Origin: a virus
DNA length: 26,194 bases
Strand: one strand, 5' to 3'
IMG/VR virus record: IMGVR_UViG_3300033141_005967
Coordinates: 1 to 26,194 of that record
The position numbers and the translations under genes were made by a program. The notes under the pieces are model-generated. The model was not told where the DNA came from. It was given only the letters and a program-made list of their open reading frames with translations, and ran no database searches. This document shows positions 4,079-23,077 of the stretch, piece by piece; the first letter of the stretch is position 1; each line of letters begins with the position of its first letter.

Positions 4079-4529
4079 GTTTCACCTCCTCCTTATCTTG
4101 CTCCATGTCGTCGCTTTGCGGCTGGGCCTGTGTCGGCGTCAAGCCAAGATCCTCCATCAGCGCCACTTCCTTGGCCCGCTGATGCAACTCGCTCTCCCAA
4201 TCCCGGCCCTGCCGGGCATACTCAAAGGCCAGCGTGGTCGTGTGGTTGGCCAGCCGCGTGGCCTGGGCGTTGGCCTCCTTGGCCGGATCGACGTGCTCGT
4301 GCCCGTCCCAGAACCACTGGTGCGGCCAGCCGGCGATGGGACCCAGGCCGGCGGGCAGTAGATTGGGGATGAGCACCGCCTCGTCGAACCAGGCGGCGAG
4401 AATGCGATCCAGCACCGCCACCTCCAGGTCGGCCTGTTCGACACGGATCGATTTGAAGTACGTCTGGTGGTCCAAGCGGCCGGAGGCGTAGTTGTAGCCC
4501 GACGAGTTGCCTGCTGCGACGTTGAACGG
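4065..4529 (-). CDS. Portal protein, 3' fragment (interrupted by mobile element)
   Basis: This frame carries the C-terminal third of a lambda-type portal protein. From the element boundary it reads NVAAGNSSGYNYASGRLDHQ then TYFKSIRVEQADLE, the highly conserved block of this family, followed by FDEAVLIPNLLP and a C-terminal DMEQDKEEVKRAAA, ending with TGA at 4065-4067. The matching N-terminal part is at 23077-22085. Joining the two at the shared 8-bp repeat gives 1,458 bases, an open frame of 485 codons plus stop, a normal length for the family. As it stands the fragment has no portal start; a TTG at 4475 could start a truncated product. The portal forms the dodecameric DNA gate at the capsid vertex and is essential, so the prophage should be defective while the element is present. 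Confidence 0.85.
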   Translation of the reverse strand, partial: PFNVAAGNSSGYNYASGRLDHQTYFKSIRVEQADLEVAVLDRILAAWFDEAVLIPNLLPAGLGPIAGWPHQWFWDGHEHVDPAKEANAQATRLANHTTTLAFEYARQGRDWESELHQRAKEVALMEDLGLTPTQAQPQSDDMEQDKEEVKRAAA

Positions 4530-4542
4530 AGTGCAAGAGGCG
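4522..4542. other. Left attachment site (attL-like junction)
   Basis: The 8-bp core TTGAACGG (4522-4529) is followed by the element arm GTGCAAGAGGCG (4531-4542). To the left is portal coding sequence; to the right is element DNA leading to the recombinase stop at 4571. The arm CAAGAGGCG (4534-4542) is the perfect inverse of CGCCTCTTG (22058-22066) at the other end. Confidence 0.8.
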
Positions 4543-4570
4543 CGAAAAGAGCGAACAACACAGAACGCGT

Positions 4571-6394
4571 TTATTCTGCGGCGATCCAGCCTTTTTGATG
4601 GCCCAGGTTGCGGATCTTGCCGGAGAGCGTTGCCTGGGCCAGGAGGCGGGAAGTGAAGGCCTTGTGGACGCCGAGAGCGTCGGCCACGTCTTGCACGTAG
4701 ACCACGTCGCCTCGCTCGCGAATGAACTGCACCGCGTCGCGCCAGCGGCCAGGGCTGGGGATGTCGTCGTCGCTGAGGGGAATCGTGCCGGCGACGCCCA
4801 GGTCGTCGCGAAGTTCGATCACGCCGTCCCAGAGCGTGATGCGGTGTTTCCCGTTGCTACGCCGCTGGCGTCGCAAGATGACACGCTTGACCGTTTGGCG
4901 AATGGCAAACGCCAGCTTTTCGCGGTCGGCTTCCGAAAGCCGCTCGAGCAACTCGTCCAGGCGGCCTATGACCTCGAGCGCTTCGGGCGACGGAGCATGG
5001 TCGCCATGGGCCTGCCGCAACTTGTCCTTCAGTTGCTCTTCCTGTTCGCGCCAGCCGGCCAGCAGCTTCGAGATGCCAGGAATGTCCTCGGGATTGGCGA
5101 GGGCCAGGTTCTCGGTACCGCGTTCGATCTTGGCCCGCACCTCCTCCAACTGCAATTCGAGCCGACCGACGTTGGCCTCGACCTTCTTGGTGCGGCGGCT
5201 GATTTCGCTGCGGATGGCCCGCTTGGTGCGCTCGTCAGACATGAAGGCCTTTAGCTTGGCCAGCACGCCTTGCTCGATGGTGTCGGCGCGGAAGCTGGGG
5301 CGATCCGATTCGTCCGGATTCTCTTCGAACGCCCTGGCTGGCAAGCTGTAATACCGCCGCACGATCTTGCGGTCCGAATGTCTCATGGTGCAGCCCTGCA
5401 ACCGCTGGCCATCGCTCAGATAGACGAGGCCCGTCAGCAGGTACCGGCCCGGCGTCGGGGCTTTCGACGGTTTGTGATTGCGCCGCAGCATCCGTTGGAC
5501 GCGGTCGAACAATTCCCGCGACACCAGCGGCTCGTGGGCGTCTTCGCAGACCACGCCGCCATCGTCGTAAAGGCTGCGAAACTTGCCGCGCCGCTTGCGG
5601 CCGGCGACGATCTTGCCGATGTAGGCCGGGTTGGTCACCGTGCGGCGAACGCTGCTGGCGTTGAACCGCTTGCCGAACATCGTGCGGACGCCGTCGCGAT
5701 TCAGTTGCCGGGCGACCGCGCCGCACGACGCCCCGCCGGCGACCGCCTCGAACATCGTCCGCACCGCCTCGACCGCTTGCACATCGCTGGAAGCGACCAG
5801 CCGTGACGACCATTGAATCGGCCGGCGAAACTTCTCGGTGGCAGAAACGCGGCGCACGACGCGACCGGTCTCGTCGAGGATTTCCCGGTCGTACCCATAC
5901 GGCGGTCCGCCTTGCTTCTGCCCACGGCTGATCGCCAGTCGCTTGCCGCTGATCACGCGGTCTGCCAGCTTGATCGACTCTTCGCGGGCACCGTACTGGT
6001 CGACAATGGCGGTGATCACGCCGCCGAGGTTGTTGAAATCGAGTTCTCCTCGCTGGCAGGTGACGATCTTCACGCCGGCGTCCCGAAGCAATTTCCAATG
6101 CACCATCGCGTCGAAGACATCCTCACGCGACATGCGGCTCTGCTCGGAAAGCAAAACGGCCTGGAATTTCCCGGTCTTGGCGTCGTTCAGCAGCCGTTGG
6201 AACTCGGGACGGTTGACGGAATCCGTTCCGGTCAGACCGTGGTCTTCGTACCAGCGGACGATGTGGTAGCCCAGCCGCTTGGCCAGGGCCTCGATATCCT
6301 TCCGCTGTCGGGCCGGGCTGTCCTGCTGCTGGTCACTGCTCATGCGGATGTAGCCCACGGCGGGCTTCAGCTTTGGTTTTGCAGGTCGCTTCAT
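4571..6394 (-). CDS. Large serine recombinase (integrase of the element)
   Basis: This is a 607-residue protein with ATG at 6394 and AAAAGGAGG six bases upstream; the start overlaps the stop of the preceding gene (ATGA). Residues 10-155 form the resolvase catalytic domain: YIRMSS with the nucleophile Ser19, then QSRMSRED (85-92), and a dimer helix region. Residues about 165-330 form the recombinase domain (PPYGYDRE, then GVRTMFGKRFNASSVRRTVT and NPAYIGKIV). The region about 325-375 is placed like the zinc-ribbon domain but has no CxxC pairs (LLTGLVYLSDGQRLQGCTMR). A coiled coil spans about 395-440. Enzymes of this family integrate and excise DNA between attP and attB through a 2-bp staggered cut. 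It lies beside the element's left att site, the usual place, and is very likely the integrase. Excision normally also needs a directionality factor, which I cannot identify with certainty. Confidence 0.93.
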   Translation of the reverse strand: MKRPAKPKLKPAVGYIRMSSDQQQDSPARQRKDIEALAKRLGYHIVRWYEDHGLTGTDSVNRPEFQRLLNDAKTGKFQAVLLSEQSRMSREDVFDAMVHWKLLRDAGVKIVTCQRGELDFNNLGGVITAIVDQYGAREESIKLADRVISGKRLAISRGQKQGGPPYGYDREILDETGRVVRRVSATEKFRRPIQWSSRLVASSDVQAVEAVRTMFEAVAGGASCGAVARQLNRDGVRTMFGKRFNASSVRRTVTNPAYIGKIVAGRKRRGKFRSLYDDGGVVCEDAHEPLVSRELFDRVQRMLRRNHKPSKAPTPGRYLLTGLVYLSDGQRLQGCTMRHSDRKIVRRYYSLPARAFEENPDESDRPSFRADTIEQGVLAKLKAFMSDERTKRAIRSEISRRTKKVEANVGRLELQLEEVRAKIERGTENLALANPEDIPGISKLLAGWREQEEQLKDKLRQAHGDHAPSPEALEVIGRLDELLERLSEADREKLAFAIRQTVKRVILRRQRRSNGKHRITLWDGVIELRDDLGVAGTIPLSDDDIPSPGRWRDAVQFIRERGDVVYVQDVADALGVHKAFTSRLLAQATLSGKIRNLGHQKGWIAAE

Positions 6395-6672
6395 CGCGAA
6401 CCTCCTTTTCGCGTCTTGGCCAGGGTGAACTTGCCCGGCGCGGTCTTCTTGAACCGGGCGTCTTTGCCCTTCTTCAGGTCGCGCAGGATCGATGCGTACA
6501 ATGTCGCATGCGGCGTCTTGCCGCCGGGTGATTTCCAGAGTCGCTTGGCCTGCATCGCCTCGACCAGTTCCCGACAGGTCATCGGCTTCTTGGTTCTCGC
6601 CAGCACCTTGGCCGCCGCCTCGATCTGACTCAGCTTCTTGACCGGCTTCTTCGTGGTCTTCTTGGTTGCCAT
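6391..6672 (-). CDS. HARE/winged-helix-like DNA-binding protein
   Basis: This is a 93-residue basic protein with ATG at 6672, AGAAGGAG seven bases upstream, and a 4-base ATGA overlap with the recombinase start, so the two are translated together. After a Lys-rich tail (MATKKTTKKPVKKLS) it reads QIEAAAKVLARTKKPMTCRE then LVEAMQAKRLW, followed by GKTPHATLYASILRDLKKGK and a C-terminal FKKTAPGKFTLA. The pattern 'aa..vL.....pm...Elv......LW...GKTP..TLya.i.rdik......F.k...g.f.L' is that of the HARE-HTH winged-helix domain, also found in RNA polymerase delta subunits. The role is probably DNA or chromatin binding that modulates the recombinase, or possibly excision control. Its leader is nearly identical to the leader of the coiled-coil gene at 18118, which is odd. 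Confidence 0.75.
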   Translation of the reverse strand: MATKKTTKKPVKKLSQIEAAAKVLARTKKPMTCRELVEAMQAKRLWKSPGGKTPHATLYASILRDLKKGKDARFKKTAPGKFTLAKTRKGGSR

Positions 6673-6926
6673 CGTTTGGCTCCTTCTGAAAAGGGAAACG
6701 GGTTTACGCGAGCCACCATGGCTCAGTCACACAGCAGCCATGGGTTCGCGTGAAGTTCAATAGCAGCCGGCGAGAATCTTGCCGGAATCCCAGAAGTTCT
6801 TCAGACGACCCAGGATCGCGACATTTGGCCCGTGTGGCGGCGGGATGGGCTGGCCAACCAGAACGCAACTGGCGAGAAAAGGCCCCACGTTGGGCCTCGT
6901 GGGCGACGTGGCGAGAACTTGCCGCC
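6673..6926. other. Non-coding stretch carrying leader and first copy of a 120-bp repeat
   Basis: No convincing gene is seen here. The stretch holds the ribosome-binding leader of the HARE-like gene (6673-6700), a short hairpin (GAGCCA-CCA-TGGCTC, 6710-6724), and repeat copy 1 (6725-6844). The minus-strand frame covering it (7210-6704) is Ser/Arg/Gly-rich and looks like chance coding in GC-rich DNA. Confidence 0.4.
6725..6844. repeat. Direct repeat copy 1 (about 120 bp)
   Basis: It begins AGTCACACAGCAGCCATG and ends near TTGGCCCGTGTGGCGGCGGG. It matches 7214-7334 in the same orientation, about 80% identical by eye with one 2-base gap. The most conserved parts are AGTCACACAGCAGCCATG, CAATAGC and GATCGCGACA-TTGGCCCGTGT. 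Confidence 0.8.
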
Positions 6927-7160
6927 TCAGATGCCAGCGGTCGTTTCGACCGCGAACTCACCGCCGCGCGGTGCCCGGGCATGGGCGCCTTGCCGGCCAG
7001 GTCGCGTGCGGAGCAACCGGCATTTAGCAGCAATCTCCCGTCGCGTCGGATGGTATTCCAACGTCCCGTTGGCCGCCCGAATCCACCGCCCGCGATCGAC
7101 CCACCGCCCTTCCGCCTGCCAACGGCGCACGTGTTCTGCAACCAAATCGTTCTCGTCCAT
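6927..7160 (-). CDS. Small conserved-looking protein of unknown function (77 aa)
   Basis: This is a 77-residue frame with ATG at 7160 and a GGGAG sequence about ten bases upstream. It reads MDENDLVAEHVRRWQAEGRW then VDRGRWIRAANGTLEYHPTR and REIAAKCRLLR, followed by an Arg/Gly/Ala-rich tail. The N-terminal 50 residues have a natural composition, with an amphipathic 'Lv.eHvrrWq.eGRWvdRG' helix and a 'PTRrEIaakC' helix, and look like a real small protein of a kind I associate with planctomycete genomes. The tail looks like random GC-rich coding, so the gene may be truncated or frame-shifted at its 3' end. It lies between the two copies of a 120-bp direct repeat, suggesting it arrived or was duplicated with them. 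I cannot assign a function; a small DNA-binding or regulatory protein is possible. Confidence 0.5.
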   Translation of the reverse strand: MDENDLVAEHVRRWQAEGRWVDRGRWIRAANGTLEYHPTRREIAAKCRLLRTRPGRQGAHARAPRGGEFAVETTAGI

Positions 7161-7213
7161 TTCGTTCCGGCTCCCGTTTGCGTGTCTCCCGCCGGCGGCC
7201 CATCCGCCAACGC

Positions 7214-7334
7214 GAGTCACACAGCAGCCATGCGGGGCGAAACGAATCAATAGCCGCCGGGAAGAATCTGGCAGGAATTCCAGAAGTTTTTCAGATGGCC
7301 CAAGATCGCGACACTTGGCCCGTGTCGCTACGGG
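7214..7334. repeat. Direct repeat copy 2 (about 120 bp)
   Basis: Same orientation as copy 1 at 6725-6844, with start points 489 bp apart. It contains a perfect GGAATTCC palindrome (copy 1 has GGAATCCC at that place). It lies upstream of the 77-residue gene, with copy 1 downstream of it. Confidence 0.8.
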
Positions 7335-7524
7335 CGGAAAGGACGTTCGCGTCCAGCAGACGCGCGAACGTGGTGGCATCCGATTGGTCGACATCACGGA
7401 GACACGGGCCGAATGAGGGAGAACGACACCGCTCCGTAGCGAACGTAAGCTGTGTGCGTACCTGGACGCCTGATCGAATCGCACAGCGCCCCCCCGACCC
7501 GATTGCAGCGGCCGCCTCGGTCTG

Positions 7525-7544
7525 GTAAGGTTAGACAAGCTTAC
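7525..7544. promoter_or_regulatory. Candidate operator of the restriction operon
   Basis: GTAAG (7525-7529) and CTTAC (7540-7544) form an inverted repeat with a 10-base spacer, 28 bases before the ATG of the MerR-like gene. The position would suit autoregulation by that protein. The arms are only five bases, so chance is not excluded. Confidence 0.3.
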
Positions 7545-7571
7545 TGCGGCCCCGAAGTCAGGACATTCACT

Positions 7572-7799
7572 ATGCCGAGAATGCAGAAACTCGACCGATA
7601 CCTGCGGATCAAGGATGCTGCGGAATACCTGGGTGTGTCGCCGAATACGCTCCGCAATTGGGGACGCAGCGGGAAAATCACGGAACGCCGCCACCCCCTG
7701 AACAGCTATCGCCTTTATGCCAAGGAAGAGTTGGACGCTTTGCTAGCCGAGGCACAAAGTCCAATCAACGTTGACTCCCCAAGACGCAAGCCGAAGTGA
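7572..7799 (+). CDS. MerR-like / excisionase-type helix-turn-helix protein
   Basis: This is a 75-residue protein with ATG at 7572; a second ATG four codons in would give MQKLDRYLRIKDAAEYLG. It consists of one helix-turn-helix domain: YLRIKDAAEYLGVSPNTLRN then WGRSGKITERRHP, ending in SYRLYAKEELDALLAEAQ. The 'iGVSpnTLRnWe..GkI...R......YR.Y...eL..ll' pattern is that of the MerR/HTH_17 group, which includes transcription regulators and phage excisionases. It lies 25 bases before hsdR in the same direction, so the most likely job is control of the restriction operon, delaying nuclease expression until methylation is established. A second possibility, that it serves as the element's recombination directionality factor, cannot be excluded because such factors share this fold. 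Confidence 0.8.
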   Translation: MPRMQKLDRYLRIKDAAEYLGVSPNTLRNWGRSGKITERRHPLNSYRLYAKEELDALLAEAQSPINVDSPRRKPK

Positions 7800-7824
7800 A
7801 ATGTTGCCCTGCCAATAGTCGATC

Positions 7825-10524
7825 ATGCACGATCGTTCGTCCCACGAATCCGAATGGTTGACCCGCAAGAAACGGATCGACCCGAAACTGAAGGCCCTCG
7901 GCTGGAAGATCGTACCATACGATGAGGGTGCAGATATATCCTCATATCGTCGGCATGCCATCGAAGAGTTTCCCACCGCCAACGGCCCGGCCGACTATGC
8001 CTTGGTCGTCGACGGCCAGCTACTCGGCGTGATCGAGGCCAAGAAGCTCTCGCTTGGGCCGCAGGGCGTGTTAGTCCAGGCAGAGCGATACTCGAAAGGC
8101 GTCATCGACAGTCCGTTCGACTTCCGGGGTTTCCGGGTCCCGTTCCTCTTCTCGACCAACGGAGAGGTCATCTGGTTTCACGACGTACGGCACGAACTCC
8201 ACCTGTCGCGCAAGATCGCCAACTTCTTCACGCCTGGTGGTCTGGCCGAGCTGATCCAAACAGACGTCGAAGCCGCTTACAGTCGCCTCCGGCAACTTCC
8301 CAACAACCATCCTCGCCTGCGACCCTACCAGATCGAAGCGAATGACGCGGTCGAAGCCGCCATTATCCGGCGAAAGCGGCAGATGCTCCTTGCGATGGCC
8401 ACCGGCACGGGCAAGACCTTCACCACGGTCAATCAGATCTACCGGCTCATGAAGTCGGGTGCGGCCCGGCGGATTCTGTTCCTGGTCGACCGTCGCGCTC
8501 TGGCAGCCCAAGCCGTCCGAGCGTTCGCCGCCTTCGAGCCGGAGCCAGGGCTGAAGTTCGACCACATCTACGAGGTCTACAGCCAGCGCTTCCAGAAAGA
8601 GGATTTCGACGAAGACGACAAGTTCGATCCAAGAGTTCTGCCCAGGGCCTACCTGGAAAACCCCACCGGCGGACACGCCTTCGTCTACGTCTGCACGATT
8701 CAGCGGATGACCATCAACCTGTTTGGTCGCCAGGCCGTGTTTCGGACCTCCTCCGATGAGGAGATTGACGAAGATGCCGAACAGCTCTCTATCCCGATTC
8801 ACGCCTTTGACCTCATCATCGCCGACGAATGCCATCGCGGGTACACGACGGGAGAAGTCTCCGTCTGGCGAGACACGTTGAATCACTTCGATGCCATTCG
8901 CGTTGGCCTTACCGCCACGCCTGCCGCCCACACGAAGGCCTACTTCAAGGACGTCGTCTACCGCTACGAATACGAACGGGCCGTCCGTGAAGGTCATCTG
9001 GTCGACTACGACGCGGTCAAGATCAAGTCCGACGTCCGCATGAACGGCGTGTTCCTCAACGAAGGTGAGGAAGTCGAGATCGTCGACCCAGACAGCGGGG
9101 CCGAGACCCGCGACAGCCTGGAAGACGAACGGCAGTTCGACAGTAGCGAGGTCGAGCGCAAGGTCACTTCCCCCGACTCCAATCGCAAAGTCGTCCTGGA
9201 ACTCAAGAAGTATGCCGACGAGCACCGGGAGCGTACCGGCCGATTCCCCAAGACACTCATCTTCGCCGCCAACGACGTGCCGCACACGTCCCATGCCGAC
9301 CAACTCGTGGAGATCTGTCGCGAGGTATTCGAGCAGGGAGAGTCATTCGTTCGCAAGATCACCGGACGCGTCGACCGCCCCCTGCAACAGATTCGCGAGT
9401 TCCGCAACCGCAAGAAGCCTGGCATCGTTGTGACGGTCGATCTGCTGAGCACCGGCGTCGATATCCCCGACCTGGAGTTCATCGTCTTCCTGCGAACGGT
9501 GAAATCCCGCATCCTCTTCGAGCAGATGCTCGGACGCGGCACACGCAAGGGCGAGCATCACCCAGATAAGTCCCACTTCGTTGTCTTCGACTGCTTCGAC
9601 GGCACCTTGCTCGAATACTTCCGCAAGTCGACCGGCATCACGGCCGAGCCGCCCGACAAGCCGGCCCGAACCATCCAGCAAATCATCGACGACATCTGGA
9701 GCAATCGCGACCGCGACTACAATATCCGCTGTCTGGTCAAGCGGCTGCAGCGAATCGAAAAAGAGATGGATGCCTCGGCCCGGGAGGATTTTGCGGCCTT
9801 CGGCATCCCCGACGGCGATATCGGCACCTACGCCCGTGCTCTCCCTCGCAAGCTCCGCGACGACTTCGTCGAGACGATGAAGCTGCTGCGGAACGAAGAG
9901 TTTCAGGACTTGCTGGTCAACTACACCCGCCGCAAAAAAGTCTTCCTCCGGGCAATCGAGCACGAAGATACCGTCTCCAGCGAGTACCTGATTCGCGACG
10001 GTAAGGGCAAAGAGTACAAGCCGGAAGACTACCTGGTTGCGTTCACCCGCTTCGTGGAAGAGAACACCGACAAGATCGACGCCATCGGCATCCTGCTCGA
10101 CCACCCTCGCGACTGGAGCACGTCCGCACTGTCGCAGCTCAAGGACAAGCTGGCCACCGCTCCCGAGCGGTTCACCATCGAGAACCTCCAGCGAGCCCAC
10201 GAGCTGTACTACAATAAGGCCCTAGTGGAGATCATATCGATGGTCAAGCACGCGGCCGACCAGTCTCAGCCGCTGTTGACGGCCGAGGAACGTATCCGCC
10301 GGGCATTCGCCAAACTCACCGCCGACAAGACATTCACCGACGAACAACAGCGGTGGCTCGACCGCATCCGCGACCACCTGGTTGCCAATCTCTCAATCGA
10401 CCAGGAGGACTTCCTCCTAATGCCCGTCTTCGAACAAGCCGGCGGCTGGGTGCAAGCCAACCGCGTGTTCGACGGGAAGCTCCAAGAATTACTTGCGGAA
10501 CTGAACGAAGCCATTGCCGCATAA
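7825..10524 (+). CDS. hsdR: Type I restriction enzyme, R subunit
   Basis: This is an 899-residue protein with ATG at 7825 and no clear ribosome-binding site. An N-terminal nuclease domain has the PD-(D/E)xK residues Asp57 (PADYALVVDG), Glu71 and Lys73 (IEAKK). The SF2 helicase/translocase core follows: Walker A ATGTGKT (192-198), motif II DECH (334-337), motif III LTATPA (about 362-367), motif V STGVDIPDLE (542-551) and motif VI QMLGRGTR (567-574). The C-terminal third matches the EcoEI-type R-subunit C-terminal region that docks on the methylase core. Together with HsdM and HsdS it would form a complex that translocates unmethylated DNA and cuts at a distance. All key motifs are intact, so the enzyme is probably active. 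The gene is followed 27 bases later by hsdM. Confidence 0.95.
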   Translation: MHDRSSHESEWLTRKKRIDPKLKALGWKIVPYDEGADISSYRRHAIEEFPTANGPADYALVVDGQLLGVIEAKKLSLGPQGVLVQAERYSKGVIDSPFDFRGFRVPFLFSTNGEVIWFHDVRHELHLSRKIANFFTPGGLAELIQTDVEAAYSRLRQLPNNHPRLRPYQIEANDAVEAAIIRRKRQMLLAMATGTGKTFTTVNQIYRLMKSGAARRILFLVDRRALAAQAVRAFAAFEPEPGLKFDHIYEVYSQRFQKEDFDEDDKFDPRVLPRAYLENPTGGHAFVYVCTIQRMTINLFGRQAVFRTSSDEEIDEDAEQLSIPIHAFDLIIADECHRGYTTGEVSVWRDTLNHFDAIRVGLTATPAAHTKAYFKDVVYRYEYERAVREGHLVDYDAVKIKSDVRMNGVFLNEGEEVEIVDPDSGAETRDSLEDERQFDSSEVERKVTSPDSNRKVVLELKKYADEHRERTGRFPKTLIFAANDVPHTSHADQLVEICREVFEQGESFVRKITGRVDRPLQQIREFRNRKKPGIVVTVDLLSTGVDIPDLEFIVFLRTVKSRILFEQMLGRGTRKGEHHPDKSHFVVFDCFDGTLLEYFRKSTGITAEPPDKPARTIQQIIDDIWSNRDRDYNIRCLVKRLQRIEKEMDASAREDFAAFGIPDGDIGTYARALPRKLRDDFVETMKLLRNEEFQDLLVNYTRRKKVFLRAIEHEDTVSSEYLIRDGKGKEYKPEDYLVAFTRFVEENTDKIDAIGILLDHPRDWSTSALSQLKDKLATAPERFTIENLQRAHELYYNKALVEIISMVKHAADQSQPLLTAEERIRRAFAKLTADKTFTDEQQRWLDRIRDHLVANLSIDQEDFLLMPVFEQAGGWVQANRVFDGKLQELLAELNEAIAA

Positions 10525-10551: not shown

Positions 10552-12042
10552 TTGTCCGACGTTGTTCAAAAACTCTGGGGATTCTGCCATACGCTTCGCC
10601 ATGACGGCATCGACTATGGGGATTACATCGAGCAGATTACCTATCTGCTCTTCCTCAAGATGTCGGACGAACGGGGGATCGACCTCACGAAGGTCTCGAT
10701 GCGGGCACTCGATGGCAAGACGATCAAGCTCGATTGCTCCTGGCCGGCGCTGACCGCCAGGTCGGGCACTGATCTGACCGACTACTACGCCAACCTGCTC
10801 CGGGCACTCGGCCAGCAAGAAGGACTCTTGGGCGACATCTTCTCGGGTGCCCAGTCGCGTTTCAGCAAGCCGACCAGTCTCAAAAAGCTGCTCACCACCA
10901 TCGACGAAACGGAATGGACCACGCTCGAAGTCAACGTCAAGGCCGAGGCCTTCGAGGGCCTTCTTGAAAAGGCTGCCAGCGAGGGGAAGAAAGGGGCGGG
11001 CCAGTATTTTACGCCCCGGCTCTTGATCCAGTCGATCGTCCGCTGCATGAAGCCCGACCCGCGTGAGAACCGTCAGTACAGGATCTGTGACCCCGCCTGC
11101 GGCACGGGCGAGTTTCTCGTTGCTGCCTATGAGTGGCTGCTGAGCGTCACCAAAGGCGGGGCCGAGCTGGACCGAGCGACCGCCCGTCGCGTCAAAACCA
11201 AGACCTACTTCGGCCAAGACCTCGTTCCCCGGCCGCGCCGGTTGGCCTTGATGAACCTCTATCTCCACAACCTCCAGCCCCATATCACGCTAGGCGACTC
11301 GATCTACGACCCGCCGCCGGCCGACCGTTTTGATTGCGTGCTGACCAATCCGCCCTTCGGCACTCGCGGGGCCAACCAGGCCCCCACACGGGACGACTTC
11401 ACCATCGCCACCAGCAACAAGCAACTCAATTTCCTCCAGCACGTGCTCACCATACTCAAGCCGGGCGGCCGGGCGGCGGTGGTCGTGCCCGACAATTGTC
11501 TCTTTGCCGACCGGGCGGGCGAGGTTTTCAAGATCATCGCCGAAGATTGCGACCTGCACACCGTGCTCCGTCTGCCCAACGGCACCTTCACGCCCTACAG
11601 CCCCGGCACCAAGACCAACGTCGTCTTCTTCAGCAAGGGCTACCCCACTGAAACCGTCTGGATCTACGACGCCCGAACCAACGTGCCGCGAATCACGAAG
11701 AAAGACCGCCCGCTGACCGCTGCTCATTTCAAGGAATTCGAAAAGTGCTACGGCCGAGACCCCAACGGCCAATCACGACGAAAGCCGAGCGACTCGAGGG
11801 AAGACCGCTGGCGGAAGTTCGGCATCGAAGAACTCAAAACCCGCGACTTCAAAATCGACAGCCTGAAATGGCTCCGCGACGACTCCCTCGAAGACGCCGA
11901 CGACCTGCCGCCACCGGAGGAACTGGCCACCGAAGCGGTTGGCGAACTTGAGGCGGCTATTGAGGAGCTGAACGCGGTCGTTGGAATGTTGGAGAACGGT
12001 AACGACACTGAGGCTGCTTTGGCAAAGGAGGATGCGTCGTGA
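10552..12042 (+). CDS. hsdM: Type I DNA methyltransferase, M subunit
   Basis: This is a 496-residue protein. I chose the TTG start at 10552 because AAAGGAAG lies just upstream and the residues that follow (SDVVQKLWGFCHTLRHDG) form the expected N-terminal helical domain. The methylase core has GQYFTPR (150-156), the AdoMet-binding motif DPACGTG (180-186) and the catalytic NPPF motif (266-269), the pattern of N6-adenine methyltransferases. The C-terminal part is helical and charged, as expected for contact with HsdS. It modifies adenine in the bipartite recognition site read by HsdS and protects the host. The TGA stop overlaps the GTG of hsdS by three bases, so M and S are translationally coupled. 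Confidence 0.95.
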   Translation: MSDVVQKLWGFCHTLRHDGIDYGDYIEQITYLLFLKMSDERGIDLTKVSMRALDGKTIKLDCSWPALTARSGTDLTDYYANLLRALGQQEGLLGDIFSGAQSRFSKPTSLKKLLTTIDETEWTTLEVNVKAEAFEGLLEKAASEGKKGAGQYFTPRLLIQSIVRCMKPDPRENRQYRICDPACGTGEFLVAAYEWLLSVTKGGAELDRATARRVKTKTYFGQDLVPRPRRLALMNLYLHNLQPHITLGDSIYDPPPADRFDCVLTNPPFGTRGANQAPTRDDFTIATSNKQLNFLQHVLTILKPGGRAAVVVPDNCLFADRAGEVFKIIAEDCDLHTVLRLPNGTFTPYSPGTKTNVVFFSKGYPTETVWIYDARTNVPRITKKDRPLTAAHFKEFEKCYGRDPNGQSRRKPSDSREDRWRKFGIEELKTRDFKIDSLKWLRDDSLEDADDLPPPEELATEAVGELEAAIEELNAVVGMLENGNDTEAALAKEDAS

Positions 12043-13619
12043 ATCCCCGTTACGCCAAAGCGTTACGCGAGAACGAACACGACGTGCCTGATGGCTGGAT
12101 GACTGCCGCCTTGGGCGACGTTGTCACTGAAGTGCAACCCGGCTTCGCCTGTGGTGCGAACAATCGGGATGGCAACGGGGTTGCTCATCTCCGACCAATG
12201 AATGTAAATGCCGAAGGCGAAATTGATCTATCGGATGTGAAATACGTGCCAGAGGGCAGGGTCGACAACGCTCGGCGGTGGCTCAAGAAAGGCGACGTCT
12301 TGTTCAATAACACAAACAGTACAGAGCTTGTCGGCAAAACGGCTTTCTACGGCCACGATGAACCACGTGCCTTCTCAAATCACATGACTCGCGTGCGTGT
12401 CTGCGAACAGGCATTTGACCCCGCGTATTGTGCGGCATTCCTACATCACTGTTGGCGAGAAGGGCATTTTCAGGAGGTCTGCAATCAGCACGTATCACAG
12501 TCAAGCGTAAGCCGAACGGTCCTTCTTCAGACCCCTGTCCTCGTCCCACCACTTGCCGAGCAGAAGCGGATTGTGGCGAAGGTGGAGGCTCTATTGGAGC
12601 GAGTGAATAGAGCCCGCGAGCGTTTGGCCCGCGTGCCGGACATCCTCAAGCGCTTCCGCCAATCCGTCCTCTCCGCCGCCTGCTCCGGCCAACTCACCGC
12701 CGACTGGCGAGAAGCCAATGAAACTGGCTGTCCAGCAGAATTGCTTCGTTCCATCCTTGACAAACGGCAGGAACGCTACGAAGCCAACAACTCGACCCGC
12801 TATCGGGCACCGCTAGAACCGAGATTCGATCGAGAATACGAGTACCCGGACGACTGGGCTGTCGCTTCAATGGACCAACTCACGTGCTTGGTGACGAGTG
12901 GCTCGCGAGGCTGGGCCAAATACTACTCAGACCATGGGCCGCTCTTCGTGCGTGCTCAGAACATCAACACGGACGAACTCCGCTTGGATAACATCGCTCA
13001 CGTCACGCCGCCTGACTCGGCAGAAGGACGTCGGACGCGGGTACAACAGGACGACCTGTTGGTCACGATAACGGGTGCGAATGTTACGAAGTCGGCAGTG
13101 GTCCGTGACAACATCGGTGAAGGTTACGTGAGCCAACACGTCGCGATTGCGAGGCCAGTTGACCCTCAAGTGTCACCTTTCATCTTCCTTTGGATCATAA
13201 GCCCGGCACACGGCCGGGCGAAGCTGAACGACGATGCTTATGGGGCTGGTAAACCCGGATTGAATCTCGACAACATTCGCGACATGCCCGTTGCGTTGCC
13301 CCCACTTGCCGAGCAGCGAGAAATCGTCCGAAGAGTAACCGCCTTGTTCGCCCTGGCCGACCGAATTGAACAACGCCTGACAGCCGCCACCGCGCGAACC
13401 GAGCGAATCACCCAGTCGATCCTCGCCAAGGCATTCGCCGGCGAGCTGGTCGAAACCGAAGCCGACCTGGCCCGCCGCGAAGGCCGAGACTACGAACCCG
13501 CCTCCGTGCTGCTTCAGCGCATCGCCGCCGAACGCCAGTCCGCCGCCAACGCCAAACCCAAGCGACCAAGGAAACCCAAGAAACGGCCACCCAGGGCCAA
13601 GAAGCGGGCGATGAAATGA
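12039..13619 (+). CDS. hsdS: Type I restriction-modification specificity subunit
   Basis: This is a 526-residue protein starting with GTG at 12039, preceded by AAAGGAGG and overlapping the hsdM stop (GTGA). It has the two-fold layout of HsdS. Target recognition domain 1 spans about residues 15-175. The first conserved spacer helix follows, with PPLAEQKRIVAKVEALLERV and SVLSAACSGQLTADW. Domain 2 spans about 270-425. The second spacer has PPLAEQREIVRRVTALFALA and SILAKAFAGELVETEAD. The two domains differ, so the site should be asymmetric and bipartite. The C-terminus is an unusually basic Lys/Arg/Pro tail of about 25 residues (PKRPRKPKKRPPRAKKRAMK). The recognition sequence cannot be read from the protein by eye. 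Confidence 0.95.
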   Translation: MNPRYAKALRENEHDVPDGWMTAALGDVVTEVQPGFACGANNRDGNGVAHLRPMNVNAEGEIDLSDVKYVPEGRVDNARRWLKKGDVLFNNTNSTELVGKTAFYGHDEPRAFSNHMTRVRVCEQAFDPAYCAAFLHHCWREGHFQEVCNQHVSQSSVSRTVLLQTPVLVPPLAEQKRIVAKVEALLERVNRARERLARVPDILKRFRQSVLSAACSGQLTADWREANETGCPAELLRSILDKRQERYEANNSTRYRAPLEPRFDREYEYPDDWAVASMDQLTCLVTSGSRGWAKYYSDHGPLFVRAQNINTDELRLDNIAHVTPPDSAEGRRTRVQQDDLLVTITGANVTKSAVVRDNIGEGYVSQHVAIARPVDPQVSPFIFLWIISPAHGRAKLNDDAYGAGKPGLNLDNIRDMPVALPPLAEQREIVRRVTALFALADRIEQRLTAATARTERITQSILAKAFAGELVETEADLARREGRDYEPASVLLQRIAAERQSAANAKPKRPRKPKKRPPRAKKRAMK

Positions 13620-16134: not shown

Positions 16135-17136
16135 TTACTCTTCAGTGGTTCCAGCGTTGTGGTTGGAAGGCCGATGGCGATCTTCGAGACATTCCTTCAA
16201 CGCAGCCGTGTTAATGGTTTTCCTCTCGTGCAGAATGCAGTCCTTGGCCGCATCATCACATGCTCGGGCGATTTCCGCATGACTCAGCCCGGTTGCCGCG
16301 CGTCGGATCTTCGGCCAACTAAGACGGCTCGCGAGGAACACCTGCAGCCGGTTGCGAACGAGCGAGTCAACCTGATCCTCAGTCGGGCGCGTGTAGTGAA
16401 CAACATCGTCAAAGCGACGGAAGAGAGCCTCGTCCAGCATGGCGACATAGTTCGTTGCAGCAAGAATCAGGCTGTCGGATTCGTCCTGTTCAAGGAATTG
16501 GAGAAACGAATTCAGGATTCGCCGTATTTCGCCCACATCGTTCCTGACGCCTCGGTCGCTTCCAATCGCGTCGAATTCATCGAAGAAGTACACGCCGCGA
16601 GTCTGCGTCATGGCCTCGAAAACCATGTGCAACTTGACCGCGGTTTCGCCCATGTACTTGGTGATCAATCCATGAAGCTGGACCGAGAACAACGGCAACT
16701 TGAGTTCACCCGCGAGGGCCGACGCGGTCATTGTCTTTCCACAACCAGGTGGCCCGACCAGAAGCAGCTTGCGACGTGCCGAGAGGCCGTGGCTGCGGAA
16801 CTTGTCCTGGTTGCGATACTCTCGGATAACTCGTTCAAGCGGCTTGCGTGTTTGATCGCTGAGCACCATTTCTGCGAACCGTGTCTTCGGATAGGTAACG
16901 GTCAGAAGTCCTGCCAACTCGCCCTTCGGCCTGGCCATCGGTACGGCGCCGCCAATCTTGCCAGATGCCTGCCTGCTCTTGATCTCGTCGACAATGTCGC
17001 GGAGTTCTTGCGCGAGCTTCCCCTTTCCACTGCGCGCGGCACGGGCGGCGATCTGGAGGGCAACCGAGACAAAATGCTCGGCGTTTCCCTCAGAGTAGCT
17101 CTTCAGCAGCGATTTGACTTGTTCTGCGCTCGCCAT
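16135..17136 (-). CDS. AAA ATPase partner of the S8 peptidase
   Basis: This is a 333-residue protein with ATG at 17136 and a GAAGGGAAGG stretch upstream. The N-terminal helical region (1-75) is followed by an AAA core: Walker A GPPGCGKT (128-135), a pore-loop-like KYMGET (160-165), Walker B FFDEFDAIG (184-192), sensor 1 AATN (226-229) and arginine residues in FRRFDD (239-244). This resembles the classic AAA family (FtsH/spastin-like ATPases) that form hexamers and remodel or thread proteins. Only three bases separate its TAA from the peptidase ATG, so the two proteins are made together and probably act as one system. The promoter should lie in the 270-bp region to the right. Confidence 0.9.
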   Translation of the reverse strand: MASAEQVKSLLKSYSEGNAEHFVSVALQIAARAARSGKGKLAQELRDIVDEIKSRQASGKIGGAVPMARPKGELAGLLTVTYPKTRFAEMVLSDQTRKPLERVIREYRNQDKFRSHGLSARRKLLLVGPPGCGKTMTASALAGELKLPLFSVQLHGLITKYMGETAVKLHMVFEAMTQTRGVYFFDEFDAIGSDRGVRNDVGEIRRILNSFLQFLEQDESDSLILAATNYVAMLDEALFRRFDDVVHYTRPTEDQVDSLVRNRLQVFLASRLSWPKIRRAATGLSHAEIARACDDAAKDCILHERKTINTAALKECLEDRHRPSNHNAGTTEE

Positions 17137-17410: not shown

Positions 17411-18118
17411 TCACGCTTCCCGCATCTTCTGCTCGATCTTCTGACGACGCTTGTCGAGATCGGCCCGTGTTTTTTCCAGCTTCCGCGCCTCGCGCAGCAG
17501 GGCGTCGGCCTTTTTCTGGTGCTCGTCGGCCTGTTCCTTGTGGCGTCGCCGGTCGGGAATCAACAGGGCCTGCTCGGCTCGTTCCCGTTCATACTTCGCC
17601 TGCTTTTCGACGCGGCGGGCCCTTTCCTTCAGGTCGTGGCATTCCCGCTCGAGCCGGTGCGATTCGGCTTCGGCTTCTTCCAGCTCGAGCCGCAGATCCC
17701 CGTCTTCACAGGTGTAGACCAGTTCGCCCAGCGCCGTGCTGCCTTCCGATAAAGCCGCGAGCACCTCGCGACGACGGGCGTGAAGTGGACGAGTGGCTTC
17801 CTCGTGCTGTTGCTCGGCCGCTTCGAGGATCTTGTCTGCCGCTGCGATTTCCTCTTCCAGTTTGTCGCGCTCGGCCTCCAGTTGGGGCATCGCGGCCACT
17901 GCCGCTTTGAGCTTCATTCGGTGCTGGCAGCGCTCGACGTCCTGCCGCAACTCGTCTACCGACTTGTCCACATCGGCGAGCAGGCGTTCGACTTCCACAG
18001 GATCGGGTTCGTCGTCCCGTGCGATTGCGGCGACCAGTTCGCGGTAGTTGCCAATGGCCGTGTCGGCGCGTTGCTTCTGGAGACCGACGAGCTTTTCGAA
18101 GAAAGATAGGGCACTCAT
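17411..18118 (-). CDS. Long coiled-coil protein of unknown function
   Basis: This is a 235-residue protein with ATG at 18118, AGAAGGAG seven bases upstream, and a 4-base ATGA overlap with the end of the metallopeptidase-like gene. After MSALSFFEKLVGLQKQRADT it is almost entirely alpha-helical heptad-like sequence rich in Glu, Arg, Lys and Ala, for example MPQLEAERDKLEEEIAAADK and LEEAEAESHRLERECHDLKE. A short break with a 'YTCEDGDLRLELEE' motif lies about residue 147. There is no signal peptide, membrane segment or enzyme motif. I do not recognise the family. As a structural or adaptor protein it might tether the metallopeptidase-like protein encoded just upstream. A start further upstream is unlikely because it would lie wholly inside the preceding gene. 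Confidence 0.75.
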   Translation of the reverse strand: MSALSFFEKLVGLQKQRADTAIGNYRELVAAIARDDEPDPVEVERLLADVDKSVDELRQDVERCQHRMKLKAAVAAMPQLEAERDKLEEEIAAADKILEAAEQQHEEATRPLHARRREVLAALSEGSTALGELVYTCEDGDLRLELEEAEAESHRLERECHDLKERARRVEKQAKYERERAEQALLIPDRRRHKEQADEHQKKADALLREARKLEKTRADLDKRRQKIEQKMREA

Positions 18119-19104: not shown

Positions 19105-21426
19105 TCACACCGGGCCTCCCTTCAGCGCGATGCCTTCATAGAACGGCCGCATGCCCGTACCGCGTCGGCGAGTGATGCCAGCCACAGCCGCCGCGAGGTC
19201 GCGGCCGAACGTCTGCCGCGTGGTCACGGCTTGCCGTCCTTCGGACTCGCACCACTGCCTCCAGGCGTCGTAGAGCAGATCGACGGCAACTCTGTGGCCG
19301 GGTCCGACGACGCACTCCTCACCAACGAACGCCGCGACGGGGGACGACAGATCCTCGATCTCCTGGACTACGTCTTGGACGCTGGCCGGCACGACGAAAT
19401 GGCCCCGCTCGTTCAGTCGCTGCCAGCCTTCGATCGACCAGTTCAGGATGCCGGGCAATTCGGCTAGCAGCCGGTCCGTCAACCGCGTGTCTTCGCGCCC
19501 GTAGAAGGTCTTGGTGAGCCGCAGGATGATGAAGCGGCCCGCCAGCGCTCCGCTGGAATCGTTGAGCCGGGGAAACTCGTTCGTGAGGAACATGAATCGC
19601 GTGGGCAGCTTGAGCGTGACGCTGGTGATGTTCTTGCGGTCCACGGTCAGCGTGTCCTCGCCGCTGATGCAGAGCAGGCGCTCAACCACCGTGGCGATGT
19701 TCTCGCCGTGGAAGCGGGCGTCGCTGACGATGGCTAGGCTCTTGCCGATGAGCGGCTGCAAACCGAACGGACCGGCGAGGCTCGATGTGGTCGGGCCACA
19801 GACGTTTCCCGTGCCGATCAATCGGGCCAGCACACGGGCGATCGTTCCCTTGCCGCTGCGCCGGGGTCCGACGATCAGCAGCATCTTCTGCTGCGAGGTG
19901 TCGCCGGTCAGGCAGTAGCCGAACCATTCCTGCAACAGGTCATGCGACTCGATGTCGCCGTCGAGCAACTGGTGCAGGAATCCATGCCACGCCATCGGAT
20001 GGGCGGCGTTCGGATCGGGGTCGAACTCCAAGGCGCAGGTCGTGAAGAATAGCGGCGTGGGCGGCAAGCGTCGCATCGAGGGGAGATGCAACAGCAGCGA
20101 TCGGCAGGCAATGATCTCGTTGGGCGAAGGCCGGTTCGCGTCGTCATCGAGCCACGAGGGGCAGAGCGTGGCCGCCGGGAGGTGAACGAACGCCTTGATT
20201 GATTCCAGTGCGGCTTTGACCGTGGATGGATTGGACTGGTAGTCGGCCAGTTCAATCGCTCCGGTGCGGCGAACGAGAACATATCGCAAGGCGTCGTGCA
20301 GCCACACCTGAAGCCGTTTCTTGACCGCGTTGTCTTCCAGTTCGCAGTAGCGGTTGTCTCGCCATTCGGTCAGCAGGCCGGCGTAGCAGTGCAAAGTGCG
20401 GCCGTCGGGATGGAGATGGAATTCGCGCACATAGGCTTCGGCGGTGGGCAGCGTTCGCGTCGGTGAGAGCACCAGCTTGCCCGACTGCGGATCGCGACTT
20501 CCCAGTTGAATGCAACCATCCGTGTCGATCTCCAGCGCCTGGCCGCGCTGGCAGTGATTTTCAGCATCGCGCAGACGCTGCGCGATTTCGTCATCGCTCC
20601 ACGCCCGTGGAAACGGCCGCTGCCGGGCGTATCGGCGGATCACATCAACGGCCGCCGCATCGTTCAGGTCGTACTCGACTGCTCGGCAAGCACAGACGAA
20701 GAGGCGATGTGAACCGTCCCTTTGGTCGCTGAGCTTGATGCGCAACATCGCCGCCAGGCAACGTGCAGAGCGATCCTGCATCGAGATGGGCGCTTTCGGT
20801 TCGGGGGCCTCCCGCTGGCCTACTGACGGTCGGCGTTTCCGCGTCTCATGTGTAGGGTGCTTCTCGCCGAGTTCCACGAGCACGGCGTCGGCCAGCCGCT
20901 TCGCGCTCTGCATCAGCGTTTCGGGATCGACCTGGGCGGGCTCTTGCCCTTCATCTTCCCAAACGATCGCCTCGCCCGACTCGTGTGTGCTGGGCGGAAA
21001 CACCGTTTGCGTTCCCGTCGAGCGGACCTCCACGATCATACCGGCCGACTTGCTACGAAACTTCTTTGTGGCCAACGGCCCCGTGACGCGATATAGCCAA
21101 TGCGAGCGCAGCTTACTCGCTCGCCCGAAGATCGCTGGCGTCGGCGGCAGAAACTGCGAAGCCAGTTCGATCGCACGCAGATGGTCGAGATCGACATCGA
21201 TCAGCCAGCCTGAAGGCTCGCCCAAGAGAACGCCGAGGTTCTGCGGACGGCCGTTGAAGTGCTCGTTGAGCGACTCCAGCGTAAGCCGCAACCGTTGCCA
21301 CCCCTTGCGGGTCGTTTTCTTCTTTCGGTAGGGAATCGGTATCACCGACCAGCCACGCAGCGTATATCGCTCCGCGGCGCTCCGGATGCCGCATTCCGCT
21401 TGTTCCCGATGGCCGTCACTCGTCAT
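19105..21426 (-). CDS. Primase-polymerase / SF3 helicase replication protein
   Basis: This is a 773-residue protein. I chose the ATG at 21426 because GGAGG lies nine bases upstream and the Prim-Pol fold starts directly after it (AAERYTLRGWSVIPIPY). The N-terminal primase-polymerase domain (about 15-170) has the metal-binding Asp77-Val-Asp79 in WLIDVDLDH and the later SHWLYRV motif (108-114). The C-terminal half is a superfamily 3 helicase of the P4/D5 type: Walker A GPRRSGKGT (520-528), then VSDARFHGEN (Walker-B position) and a sensor block PTRFMFLTNEFPRL. Proteins of this layout start and drive replication of phages, satellites such as P4, and plasmids. It is the only replication gene in the element and suggests the excised circle can replicate. 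It overlaps the 61-residue gene upstream by 11 bases. Confidence 0.9.
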   Translation of the reverse strand: MTSDGHREQAECGIRSAAERYTLRGWSVIPIPYRKKKTTRKGWQRLRLTLESLNEHFNGRPQNLGVLLGEPSGWLIDVDLDHLRAIELASQFLPPTPAIFGRASKLRSHWLYRVTGPLATKKFRSKSAGMIVEVRSTGTQTVFPPSTHESGEAIVWEDEGQEPAQVDPETLMQSAKRLADAVLVELGEKHPTHETRKRRPSVGQREAPEPKAPISMQDRSARCLAAMLRIKLSDQRDGSHRLFVCACRAVEYDLNDAAAVDVIRRYARQRPFPRAWSDDEIAQRLRDAENHCQRGQALEIDTDGCIQLGSRDPQSGKLVLSPTRTLPTAEAYVREFHLHPDGRTLHCYAGLLTEWRDNRYCELEDNAVKKRLQVWLHDALRYVLVRRTGAIELADYQSNPSTVKAALESIKAFVHLPAATLCPSWLDDDANRPSPNEIIACRSLLLHLPSMRRLPPTPLFFTTCALEFDPDPNAAHPMAWHGFLHQLLDGDIESHDLLQEWFGYCLTGDTSQQKMLLIVGPRRSGKGTIARVLARLIGTGNVCGPTTSSLAGPFGLQPLIGKSLAIVSDARFHGENIATVVERLLCISGEDTLTVDRKNITSVTLKLPTRFMFLTNEFPRLNDSSGALAGRFIILRLTKTFYGREDTRLTDRLLAELPGILNWSIEGWQRLNERGHFVVPASVQDVVQEIEDLSSPVAAFVGEECVVGPGHRVAVDLLYDAWRQWCESEGRQAVTTRQTFGRDLAAAVAGITRRRGTGMRPFYEGIALKGGPV

Positions 21427-21601
21427 CCACAAGATCCTCCGTGACGGGCGTGCTCTTTGTTTGGTGATCGTCCTGATGGGAGACATCAGAGTGCCGGTGT
21501 GACCGCGACCGCTTCTCCCACAGGTCCAGCAATACGGTCGCCCACGCGCTCGCGAAATCCTCGGGCAATTCCTGGTCGGCAATCGCCTTGTCCTGTGTCA
21601 T
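21416..21601 (-). CDS. Small acidic protein at the head of the replication operon
   Basis: This is a 61-residue frame with ATG at 21601 (a TTG at 21607 is also possible) behind a strong AAAGGAGG. It reads MTQDKAIADQELPEDFASAW then ATVLLDLWEKRS, followed by a polar His/Ser/Asp-rich tail ending TPVTEDLVDDE. The stop overlaps the primase ATG by 11 bases, so the pair is translationally coupled. The first 30 residues could form one helix; the rest is probably unstructured. I do not recognise it. Its place as first gene of the operon at the recombination end makes it a candidate regulator or recombination directionality factor, but nothing in the sequence proves this. Confidence 0.6.
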   Translation of the reverse strand: MTQDKAIADQELPEDFASAWATVLLDLWEKRSRSHRHSDVSHQDDHQTKSTPVTEDLVDDE

Positions 21602-22076
21602 CGCCAAATTGCCTCCTTTCCCTCGGCGCGTACCGCGAGCGCCACTATGCTCTGGGTTCGTTTTCGAGCTGTCCGCCCCTTAGTTACCTATGCCGTTGGC
21701 AGTCGGCAGTGCGCGCCAAGCCGCTCGATTTCGCATTGCGGTTTCGCGGCCACACGCATCGGGCGTACATTGATGACCTACCGGATCGCGGGGCGAACTG
21801 TCGGAAACAGTGCGGTGATACCGGGGATTTCCGCTTCGGGGTTTGAGCCGACAACCAACACGTCCGTCTATTAGGTTAAGAACCCGGTTGCGGCGCGAAC
21901 TGACGAAACAATCGCGAAAAATGCCGCCAGAGCATGCCCAACACGGCCGTCTATTTGTTGACCTACCCGGCGGAGGTGCGGAATGACGAGAGCGGGCAGA
22001 GAAAATCGGGCAACCCGCAGTCAACGCTGGCCGGAATTGCGTTGTTGACCAAAACCCCGCCTCTTGAACGCCCTTC
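21602..22076. other. Repeat-rich right end of the element
   Basis: This stretch of about 475 bp between the replication operon and the right att site has no gene of its own, although the interrupted portal frame runs through part of it until a stop at 21680. It should hold the promoter of the minus-strand replication operon and contains about four degenerate direct repeats (see 21771-22060). Confidence 0.5.
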
Positions 22077-23077
22077 TTGAACGGCATGTTCAGGCACCGG
22101 GCGATCTCATTGAGGATCTCTCGTTTGAACTCGCCATAGGTGGTTGCCGGCTGCTCGGCGTGGATTTGGCCCATCTTCCAGCCGCCTGGCATAGTCAACA
22201 GCGCCCGTTGCTCCAGCTCGATCGGCTCGAACGGCTCGGCGGCGTCGGCCTCGCCACTGGCGGGCGAATCCGTGTAGAGGATGCCTGCAAAGTCGGCAGC
22301 CGTTTCCGCGGCGGCGATCACCGCTAGCGTGTAGCGCCGAAGTTGGGCGAATAGCGGCAGTGCCGGCATGATGTCGGGGATGCCGCGGGCCTGGCCGGGA
22401 CGATCCACGCGAAACCAGTGGATCACAGATTCCGCCGGAACGCGGTCGTAGTCCAATCCATACGGATATGCGGCCGCCATGTCGCCCGGGTGCCGTTTCA
22501 GAATGTGGTATTCGACCGGGTTGCCCGCGGAGTCGAAGACGATGCCGTCCACCGCGTTGCGCTTCAGGACGCTGAGGTCCGGCGTGGCAACCTGGTCCGC
22601 CTCGACCAGTCGCAAGTCGAGCTTCATCGGCGTGGGAATCGCCGGGTTGCTCGTGAGGATGATGAAGCCTTCCCCGTCCTCGGCCCGCGCCATACGCAGT
22701 GTGCGGAGCTTTTCAGCGAGGCCCACCGCCCTGGACCAGAAGGCAAAGTCACGTTCGATGCGCCGGTTGGCTTTGGCATCGCCGGTGAACATTTGTAGCC
22801 GCGGTCCCGTGCCGATCACGTCGTTGGCCAGAGTGAGCACGATTCCGCGGGCATAGCTGTTGTTCGCGATCTCATAGCGCGACCGGTTCCGGAGAATTCG
22901 GCGAACCTCGGCGCTGTTGGCCGCGTTGGCGGAAAGCTCGTCGGCGCCGGCCCAGTGTCTGCGGTTGTCGTTGGTGGTGACCGCCGCGTCGTAGCGGGCG
23001 CGGAGCAGGGGCAACACGCGCCTGGGCAGACGTGCCTTTCGCGACGAAGTGACCAGGTTTTTTAGCCACGTCAGCAC
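21680..23077 (-). CDS. Portal protein, 5' part fused to element-encoded tail
   Basis: The frame starts with GTG at 23077-23075, overlapping by one base the TAG of the 65-residue gene, and codes for 331 native residues up to 22085. It then runs 134 codons into element DNA and stops at 21680. The native part is a lambda-family portal: NNSYARGIVLTLANDVIGTG, RMARAEDGEGFIILTSNP, LRLVEADQV, VIHWFRVDRPGQARGIPDIM and EFKREILNEIARCLNMPF. The missing remainder is at 4529-4065. The foreign tail (KKGVQEAGFWSTTQ and on) is Ser/Arg/Pro-rich and is probably meaningless. The fusion lacks the conserved NSSGYNYASG block and C-terminal crown, so a working portal is unlikely. It could in principle poison assembly if it were stable. 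Confidence 0.85.
   Translation of the reverse strand: MLTWLKNLVTSSRKARLPRRVLPLLRARYDAAVTTNDNRRHWAGADELSANAANSAEVRRILRNRSRYEIANNSYARGIVLTLANDVIGTGPRLQMFTGDAKANRRIERDFAFWSRAVGLAEKLRTLRMARAEDGEGFIILTSNPAIPTPMKLDLRLVEADQVATPDLSVLKRNAVDGIVFDSAGNPVEYHILKRHPGDMAAAYPYGLDYDRVPAESVIHWFRVDRPGQARGIPDIMPALPLFAQLRRYTLAVIAAAETAADFAGILYTDSPASGEADAAEPFEPIELEQRALLTMPGGWKMGQIHAEQPATTYGEFKREILNEIARCLNMPFKKGVQEAGFWSTTQFRPALTAGCPIFSARSRHSAPPPGRSTNRRPCWACSGGIFRDCFVSSRRNRVLNLIDGRVGCRLKPRSGNPRYHRTVSDSSPRDPVGHQCTPDACGRETAMRNRAAWRALPTANGIGN
21771..22060. repeat. Four degenerate direct repeats (period about 86-101 bp)
   Basis: Junction sequences of similar pattern recur: TGATGACCTACCGGATCGCG (from 21771), TAGGTTAAGAACCCGGTTGC (from 21872), GTTGACCTACCCGGCGGAGG (from 21957) and GTTGACCAAAACCCCG (22044-22059). 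The first three are followed by GGCGAACTG-, GCGAACTGACG- or GGAATGACG-like blocks. Preceding blocks share ACACG.CCGTCTATT (21858 on and 21940 on). They are diverged but ordered, as iterons or recombination-protein sites would be. Confidence 0.55.
22058..22084. other. Right attachment site (attR-like junction)
   Basis: The element arm CGCCTCTTG (22058-22066) is followed by the 8-bp core TTGAACGG (22077-22084), after which portal codons begin on the minus strand. The core is identical to 4522-4529. Bases on both sides of the core differ between the two ends, so the shared sequence is exactly eight bases. Confidence 0.8.

Follow-up and report, generated by a model that had tools for sequence, protein, structure and literature searches.

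A lambda-type portal gene interrupted by a probable helper-embedded satellite that carries a large serine integrase

Helper-embedded phage-inducible chromosomal islands (HE-PICIs) have tyrosine integrases only, encode AlpA and Bro-N proteins, and occur in Enterobacteriaceae and relatives (Tommasini, Mageeney & Williams 2023, PMC10111431); for one of them, excision has been demonstrated, following excision and replication of the composite (PMC10111431). Two further systems are relevant: the PICI-like element (PLE) of V. cholerae has a large serine recombinase and its excision is triggered by phage (PMC6002521), and P4-like satellites have defence hotspots with exchangeable defence genes (PMC9122126). 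Here we describe an element of 17,555 bp that interrupts a lambda-type portal gene in the IMG/VR virus record IMGVR_UViG_3300033141_005967. The window, meaning the whole stretch of DNA analysed, is the complete contig of 26,194 bp, a linear fragment that covers no host chromosome; its host is taken to be a planctomycete, judged from relatives only. We assign a probability of roughly three in four to the reading that the element is a phage satellite embedded in its helper and equipped with a large serine integrase.

The features that define the insertion are as follows.

4065–4529, minus strand: portal 3' part, including the core
4522–4529: attachment (att) core, left copy (CCGTTCAA on the portal strand), with AA as the inferred crossover dinucleotide
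4571–6394, minus strand: large serine integrase, 607 amino acids (Pfam Resolvase and Recombinase; PHROG integrase; site-respecting clade)
22077–22084: att core, right copy
22085–23077, minus strand: portal 5' part, with the core next after it

The preliminary description had reported a split portal gene with the same 8-bp core at both junctions and an adjoining serine recombinase, and this was confirmed. Copies of CCGTTCAA lie at both edges of the element, with TTGAACGG at 4522–4529 and 22077–22084, and the identity extends over exactly 8 bp. The gene for the large serine recombinase (LSR), with Resolvase and Recombinase domains, terminates 42 bp from the left core. The portal is split between Met-Pro-Phe and Asn-Val-Ala, ahead of NSSGYNYASG. 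Deletion in silico of one core copy and the intervening 17,547 bp yielded the predicted open frame of 485 codons plus stop, starting with GTG at 23077, and the joined product matches Pfam Phage_portal_2 (E 2e-57), identifying it as a lambda-family portal.

Comparison with related loci placed this joint in a wider setting. Complete elements with both portal halves number nine and span 9.9–17.6 kb, and joining the halves gives, in all nine, a portal that stays in frame and aligns with intact relatives without gaps. The preliminary description would have been overturned by a lack of uninterrupted homologous portals; these proved plentiful and align across the joint without a gap. All 80 of those retrieved are continuous across the site, and 41 of the 80 carry the exact sequence ATGCCGTTCAACGTC at the position of the window's split (site A). 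The closest natural empty site (L086) is 94% identical to the joined flanks of element L044 over 1,100 bp with no gap. The closed chromosome CP036272.1 of the isolate Planctomycetes bacterium SV_7m_r carries one of the split portals (L047) and has a second prophage whose portal, of the same family, is uninterrupted. At the codons split in the window, L041 has the core CCGTTCAA, and L048 has TTCAA in common with it.

Serine integrase attP sites are typically two-fold symmetric around the crossover. In the reconstructed circle junction (attP) of the window element, with arms CGCCTCTTG...CAAGAGGCG, 23 of 36 pairs match, against a shuffle maximum of 19, and the dyad is centred on the AA of CCGTTCAA, the predicted crossover, whose position is thus fixed independently of the repeat. 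Symmetry exceeded all shuffles in six of the nine elements (two of these being identical to each other), was marginal in L043 and L047, and failed in L046; attB sites subjected to the same test had no comparable dyad. The element accordingly combines LSR domains, a short att core and a symmetric attP with a central crossover, the features by which large-serine-integrase elements are recognised. A lone 8-bp repeat could be due to chance, but chance is excluded by the recurrence of the core at the same codons, the nine gap-free joints, the continuity of 80/80 relatives and the attP dyad.

The portal gene is entered at several points. In group A, comprising the window and at least nine others, the split falls between Pro-Phe and Asn-Val; in group B it falls at the Gln of QPATTY, approximately 25 residues upstream. 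The L047 portal is split at Val-Asp-Pro, approximately 80 residues downstream of the group A site, and the split point in L027 is more N-terminal. Within the portal gene the integrase family thus uses three or more codon positions. The integrases of site A group in a single well-supported clade, which also contains nested off-target members. When integrases of group A are compared with those of group B, residues 1 to 145 are 74–94% identical and the remainder 31–38%; the target site therefore follows the C-terminal module, and the catalytic module appears to have been exchanged. The integrases of L005 (site A) and L007 (site B), 94% identical in the catalytic part and 35% in the C-terminal part, look like natural chimeras.

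A scan of IMG/VR with the window integrase returned 11 loci, and each of the 11 has a homologous portal, in its 3' part, next after the integrase. Since IMG/VR is pre-selected for viral sequence, a genome collection was scanned as well, yielding 24 related integrase loci, nearly all from Planctomycetota. A lambda-type portal adjoins eight of the 24 (L015, L016, L017, L020, L022, L024, L027 and L033), and another portal type (PHROG portal) adjoins the integrase of L025. At L030, an integrase relative adjoins the 3' part of an HK97-type major capsid gene (PF05065, E 2e-45; L030:8122-8841), so that the family may also target capsid genes, as judged from the 3' side of this locus. Three loci (L013, L014 and L031) are chromosomal off-target sites carrying the same att half, and the rest of the 24 were not assignable, the sequence ending early or the context being unclear. 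Within a Planctomycetota sample the integrase (E <= 1e-40) was found in 9 of 392 genomes, mostly as remote relatives. Among INPHARED phages only distant LSRs (<60% identity) were found, with no DNA match to the tested portal region. Two metagenome-assembled contigs (L017 and L022), labelled Sphingomonadaceae and Nealsonbacteria, bear composites like those of planctomycete contigs and are probably mis-binned. Beside the off-target integrase of L014 lies a type I-G (I-U) CRISPR-Cas operon (L014:2-8336; Cas3g, Cas8g and Cas5/6g), possibly cargo.

The strongest evidence for recent site-specific movement is provided by L044 and L045, elements from different metagenomes that are identical at 15,724 of 15,724 positions. 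The phage DNA flanking them is only 90–92% identical, and the identity changes at the predicted crossovers. Related loci, some two dozen of them, occur in different portals, and this one identical element occurs in two phages; the earlier expectation of portability across many phages has thus held up.

The remaining features of the window are given below.

6391–6672, minus strand: HARE-HTH protein, overlapping the integrase start, with a homologue in helper early regions
6726–6763, minus strand: helper-type regulatory motif copy 2, 53 bp upstream of the HARE-HTH gene
6927–7160, minus strand: open reading frame (ORF) of 77 amino acids, conserved in about 10 other element loci; candidate recombination directionality factor (inferred)
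7216–7253, minus strand: helper-type regulatory motif copy 1, 55 bp upstream of the 77-amino-acid ORF
7452–7799, plus strand: HTH_17 / mad1-like (MerR/HTH_17) regulator of the restriction-modification (R-M) cargo, start codon uncertain
7825–10524, plus strand: HsdR, type I restriction subunit
10552–12042, plus strand: HsdM, type I methyltransferase
12039–13619, plus strand: HsdS, specificity subunit
13663–16131, minus strand: IetS, subtilisin-like protease of the IetAS defence system
16135–17136, minus strand: IetA, AAA ATPase of IetAS
17411–18106, minus strand: coiled-coil core protein, all-helical, 231 amino acids
18115–18891, minus strand: HExxH (zincin-like) core protein
19105–21582, minus strand: Prim-Pol / D5-type primase-helicase, replication gene
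2122–3987, minus strand: helper prophage fused head protease / major head protein (PHROG)
23580–25847, minus strand: helper prophage terminase large subunit (PHROG)
25837–26061, minus strand: helper prophage small-terminase candidate, conserved upstream of the large-subunit gene in five helpers

Read along the portal strand, the portal 5' part is followed by Prim-Pol/D5, HExxH, coiled coil, IetA and IetS, then by hsdS, hsdM, hsdR and the regulator on the opposite strand, and finally by the integrase end, where motif copy 1, the 77-amino-acid ORF, motif copy 2, HARE-HTH and the LSR gene precede the portal 3' part. The integrase, replication and core genes lie on the minus strand like the portal, an order and sense kept in the other complete elements. 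The split portal stands in a phage late region, with the terminase large subunit, the head protease/major head protein and other late genes.

Each of the nine complete elements encodes the HExxH protein, in which the His-Glu and a third His are invariant, the coiled-coil protein (235 amino acids in six of eight aligned), and a replication gene of D5/Prim-Pol or AAA_25 type. HARE-HTH was detected by tblastn in eight of the nine, L041 being the exception. AlphaFold predicted high-confidence helices for the coiled-coil protein and gave moderate confidence for the HExxH protein. Assignment of the latter to a known peptidase was rejected, since Pfam and PHROG were negative and Foldseek gave weak similarity to Zn peptidases, with no E <0.001. 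Variable cargo, mostly defence, is located between the coiled coil and HARE: type I R-M and IetAS in the window, other type I R-M systems in L043 and L048, a methylase with a helicase-like protein in L042, a PDC-M30 candidate pair in L046, a methylase in L047, and a 1,809-amino-acid surface-type protein in L044/L045. Coiled-coil homologues in other genomes (L156–L158) had no portal context. One of these, in another Planctomycetota genome (L157:9450-12649), belongs to a coiled-coil/AAA_25 set that resembles the satellite core and may be related to it while integrating by another strategy.

A regulatory motif is common to helper and element. The 38-bp sequence, with consensus cgCTTG.TGTgTTc...acgCATGGCTCATGTGTG, precedes small early genes in the CP036272.1 helper. 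A matrix trained on seven helper sites, and on no element sites, passed the threshold in L004, L008/L042, L009/L043, L016/L048, L024 and the window, where the two copies scored 22.9 and 12.8 bits and the next best site −2.1; no matches were found in 1.27 Mb of Markov-shuffled control. The element sites are on the integrase strand, upstream of HARE or the integrase gene. In a closed 7.1-Mb genome (G007), all 12 pattern matches fall within the two prophages of this type, in their early regions, and reversed-pattern controls in that genome gave none. Because the integrase operon thus bears a motif that in the 7.1-Mb genome is confined to prophage early regions, the helper likely switches the element on, and a helper regulator probably controls the satellite integrase operon. 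Small genes are also common to the elements and the helpers' early regions, and five composites have a helper HARE-HTH gene upstream of the terminase genes and facing away from them. The motif was considered as a cos site, an idea that was abandoned because it recurs many times, approximately 30–55 bp before gene starts. Both window copies are held within an imperfect direct repeat of approximately 120 bp (6724–7356, 81% identical) ahead of the 77-amino-acid ORF and HARE-HTH.

These observations suggest the following pathway. Upon prophage induction, a helper regulator would act on the motif and turn on the operon of the 77-amino-acid ORF, HARE and integrase. The integrase, probably with a directionality factor, would excise the element, restoring the portal so that helper virions can form. 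The element would replicate by its own primase-helicase and be packaged with helper proteins, no structural gene having been recognised in it. On reaching a new cell, it would insert itself in the portal gene of a phage belonging to the helper's family, either one already resident or one coming in. As follows from the anatomy, the prophage would be off while the element is integrated and on once it is excised. A portal site would guarantee a helper, whose morphogenesis would wait on satellite excision, and the R-M and IetAS cargo would shield the host, and hence satellite and helper, from other phages.

The satellite reading offered in the preliminary description is the best fit among the readings, combining a fixed portal codon position, precise restoration, phage-to-phage movement, defence cargo and a helper motif on the integrase operon. 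Several points weigh against it. Excision, replication, packaging and transfer are inferred from sequence. No cos/pac site common to element and helper was found by blastn of the elements against the helper flanks, which returned only HARE/small-gene homology and the 38-bp motif; the window contig stops approximately 130 bp past the small-terminase gene and does not include the helper cos region. No excisionase of a known kind was recognised, the 77-amino-acid ORF being a candidate. The motif is below the scan threshold in elements L041 and L044–L047, and its role may be that of a promoter, an operator or an element associated with gene starts. Finally, chromosomal relatives exist, with broken integrases in L013 and L031 and an intact one in L014.

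The rich defence cargo and the chromosomal relatives would also suit an integrative defence island for which prophages serve as a conserved and dispensable place to insert, with transfer by means other than the phage. Consistent with this, no virion structural genes were recognised in the window element by Pfam, PHROG or PADLOC, the HExxH and coiled-coil genes having no assigned function, and no packaging genes were recognised. We regard such an island as unlikely, however, since a helper regulatory motif stands ahead of the integrase operon, HARE-HTH and small genes are common with the helper early region, no conjugation or mobilisation genes were recognised among the searched proteins, and integrase retargeting is mostly confined to phage head genes.

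Precise restoration of the portal is likewise expected under active lysogeny, in which a host-signal switch keeps the prophage silent, and precedents of the sigK/comK type exist for such regulated gene integrity. However, the element is found at several positions in many different phages, most portals are free of it, and its cargo and the common motif serve the element, with no host benefit visible. A host-serving switch is very improbable, and neither it nor the 'taming' idea also raised in the preliminary description found specific support. Equally hard to credit is a dead end, in which insertion permanently inactivated a decaying prophage. The frameshifted portal 3' part of L005 and the broken off-target integrases fit such domestication, but the other 16 of 17 interrupted 3' parts are unbroken, the window integrase and adjacent head genes are open frames, and the identical element in two phages indicates recent movement. 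Although the window is a metagenomic contig, an assembly chimera joining an unrelated contig into the portal gene is refuted by the recurrence of the same arrangement, with codon-exact joints, in many independent contigs and the closed chromosome CP036272.1.

The preliminary description makes no mention of HE-PICIs, the published counterpart with a tyrosine integrase. The satellite as reconstructed here resembles them in disrupting a late gene that is restored on excision, without replacement sequence in attP, and in its integrases, which belong to a clade with repeated shifts to new late-gene targets and with subclades that are site-respecting. Further likenesses are that the portal (lambda B) is one of the targets, that some relatives lie off target in chromosomes, and that there are a variable zone and an own replication gene (here Prim-Pol/D5); DUF5906/D5-type replication domains are common to both by family name, as compared by description rather than by genome sequence. 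It differs in having a large serine integrase instead of one from a tyrosine clade, and in lacking AlpA beside the integrase gene, whose neighbours are HARE-HTH and the 77-amino-acid ORF without family match; the sole HTH_17 gene of the window element stands divergently with hsdRMS. The core of HARE-HTH, HExxH and coiled coil, with a replication gene of D5 or AAA_25 type, is also different, as are the strong defence cargo, the occurrence in Planctomycetota and the motif common to helper and satellite. Because the tyrosine integrase clade and AlpA that mark HE-PICIs are not found, the element is not one of them; it is best seen as functioning like an HE-PICI while belonging to a separate, convergent helper-embedded satellite lineage.

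PLE is likewise a phage-dependent element with a serine integrase, but it resides in the bacterial chromosome and answers a lytic phage, whereas the present element lies inside a helper structural gene. P4-like satellites share the exchangeable defence genes. P4 itself has D5/primase-type replication, a tyrosine integrase and chromosomal sites. No description of serine-integrase helper-embedded satellites, or of such elements in planctomycetes, was found in the open literature, subscription journals and preprints being outside its scope.

Structural-gene-nested satellites are known until now from one tyrosine-integrase clade in Enterobacteriaceae, and the same lifestyle with an unrelated recombinase in another phylum would make it a repeatable strategy. 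We consider it an evenly balanced proposition that these loci represent an independent, phylum-wide lineage of serine-integrase satellites, in which recombining catalytic and DNA-binding modules allow hops between portal (and capsid) codon positions and in which many members bear the helper motif before the integrase operon, so that helper induction directly sets the moment at which the portal is restored. One prediction is that many of the prophages that look 'broken' in genome collections are composites of satellite and helper. The integrases form a natural set with apparent domain swaps whose target preference is readable from portal sequences, defence islands become linked to phage-to-phage movement, and the motif in common makes helper control of satellite excision directly testable.

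In the CP036272.1 prophage, three overlapping tyrosine recombinase genes, resembling a recombinase-in-trio (RIT) arrangement, were also observed between the small-terminase gene and the early region (L147:10037-13288).
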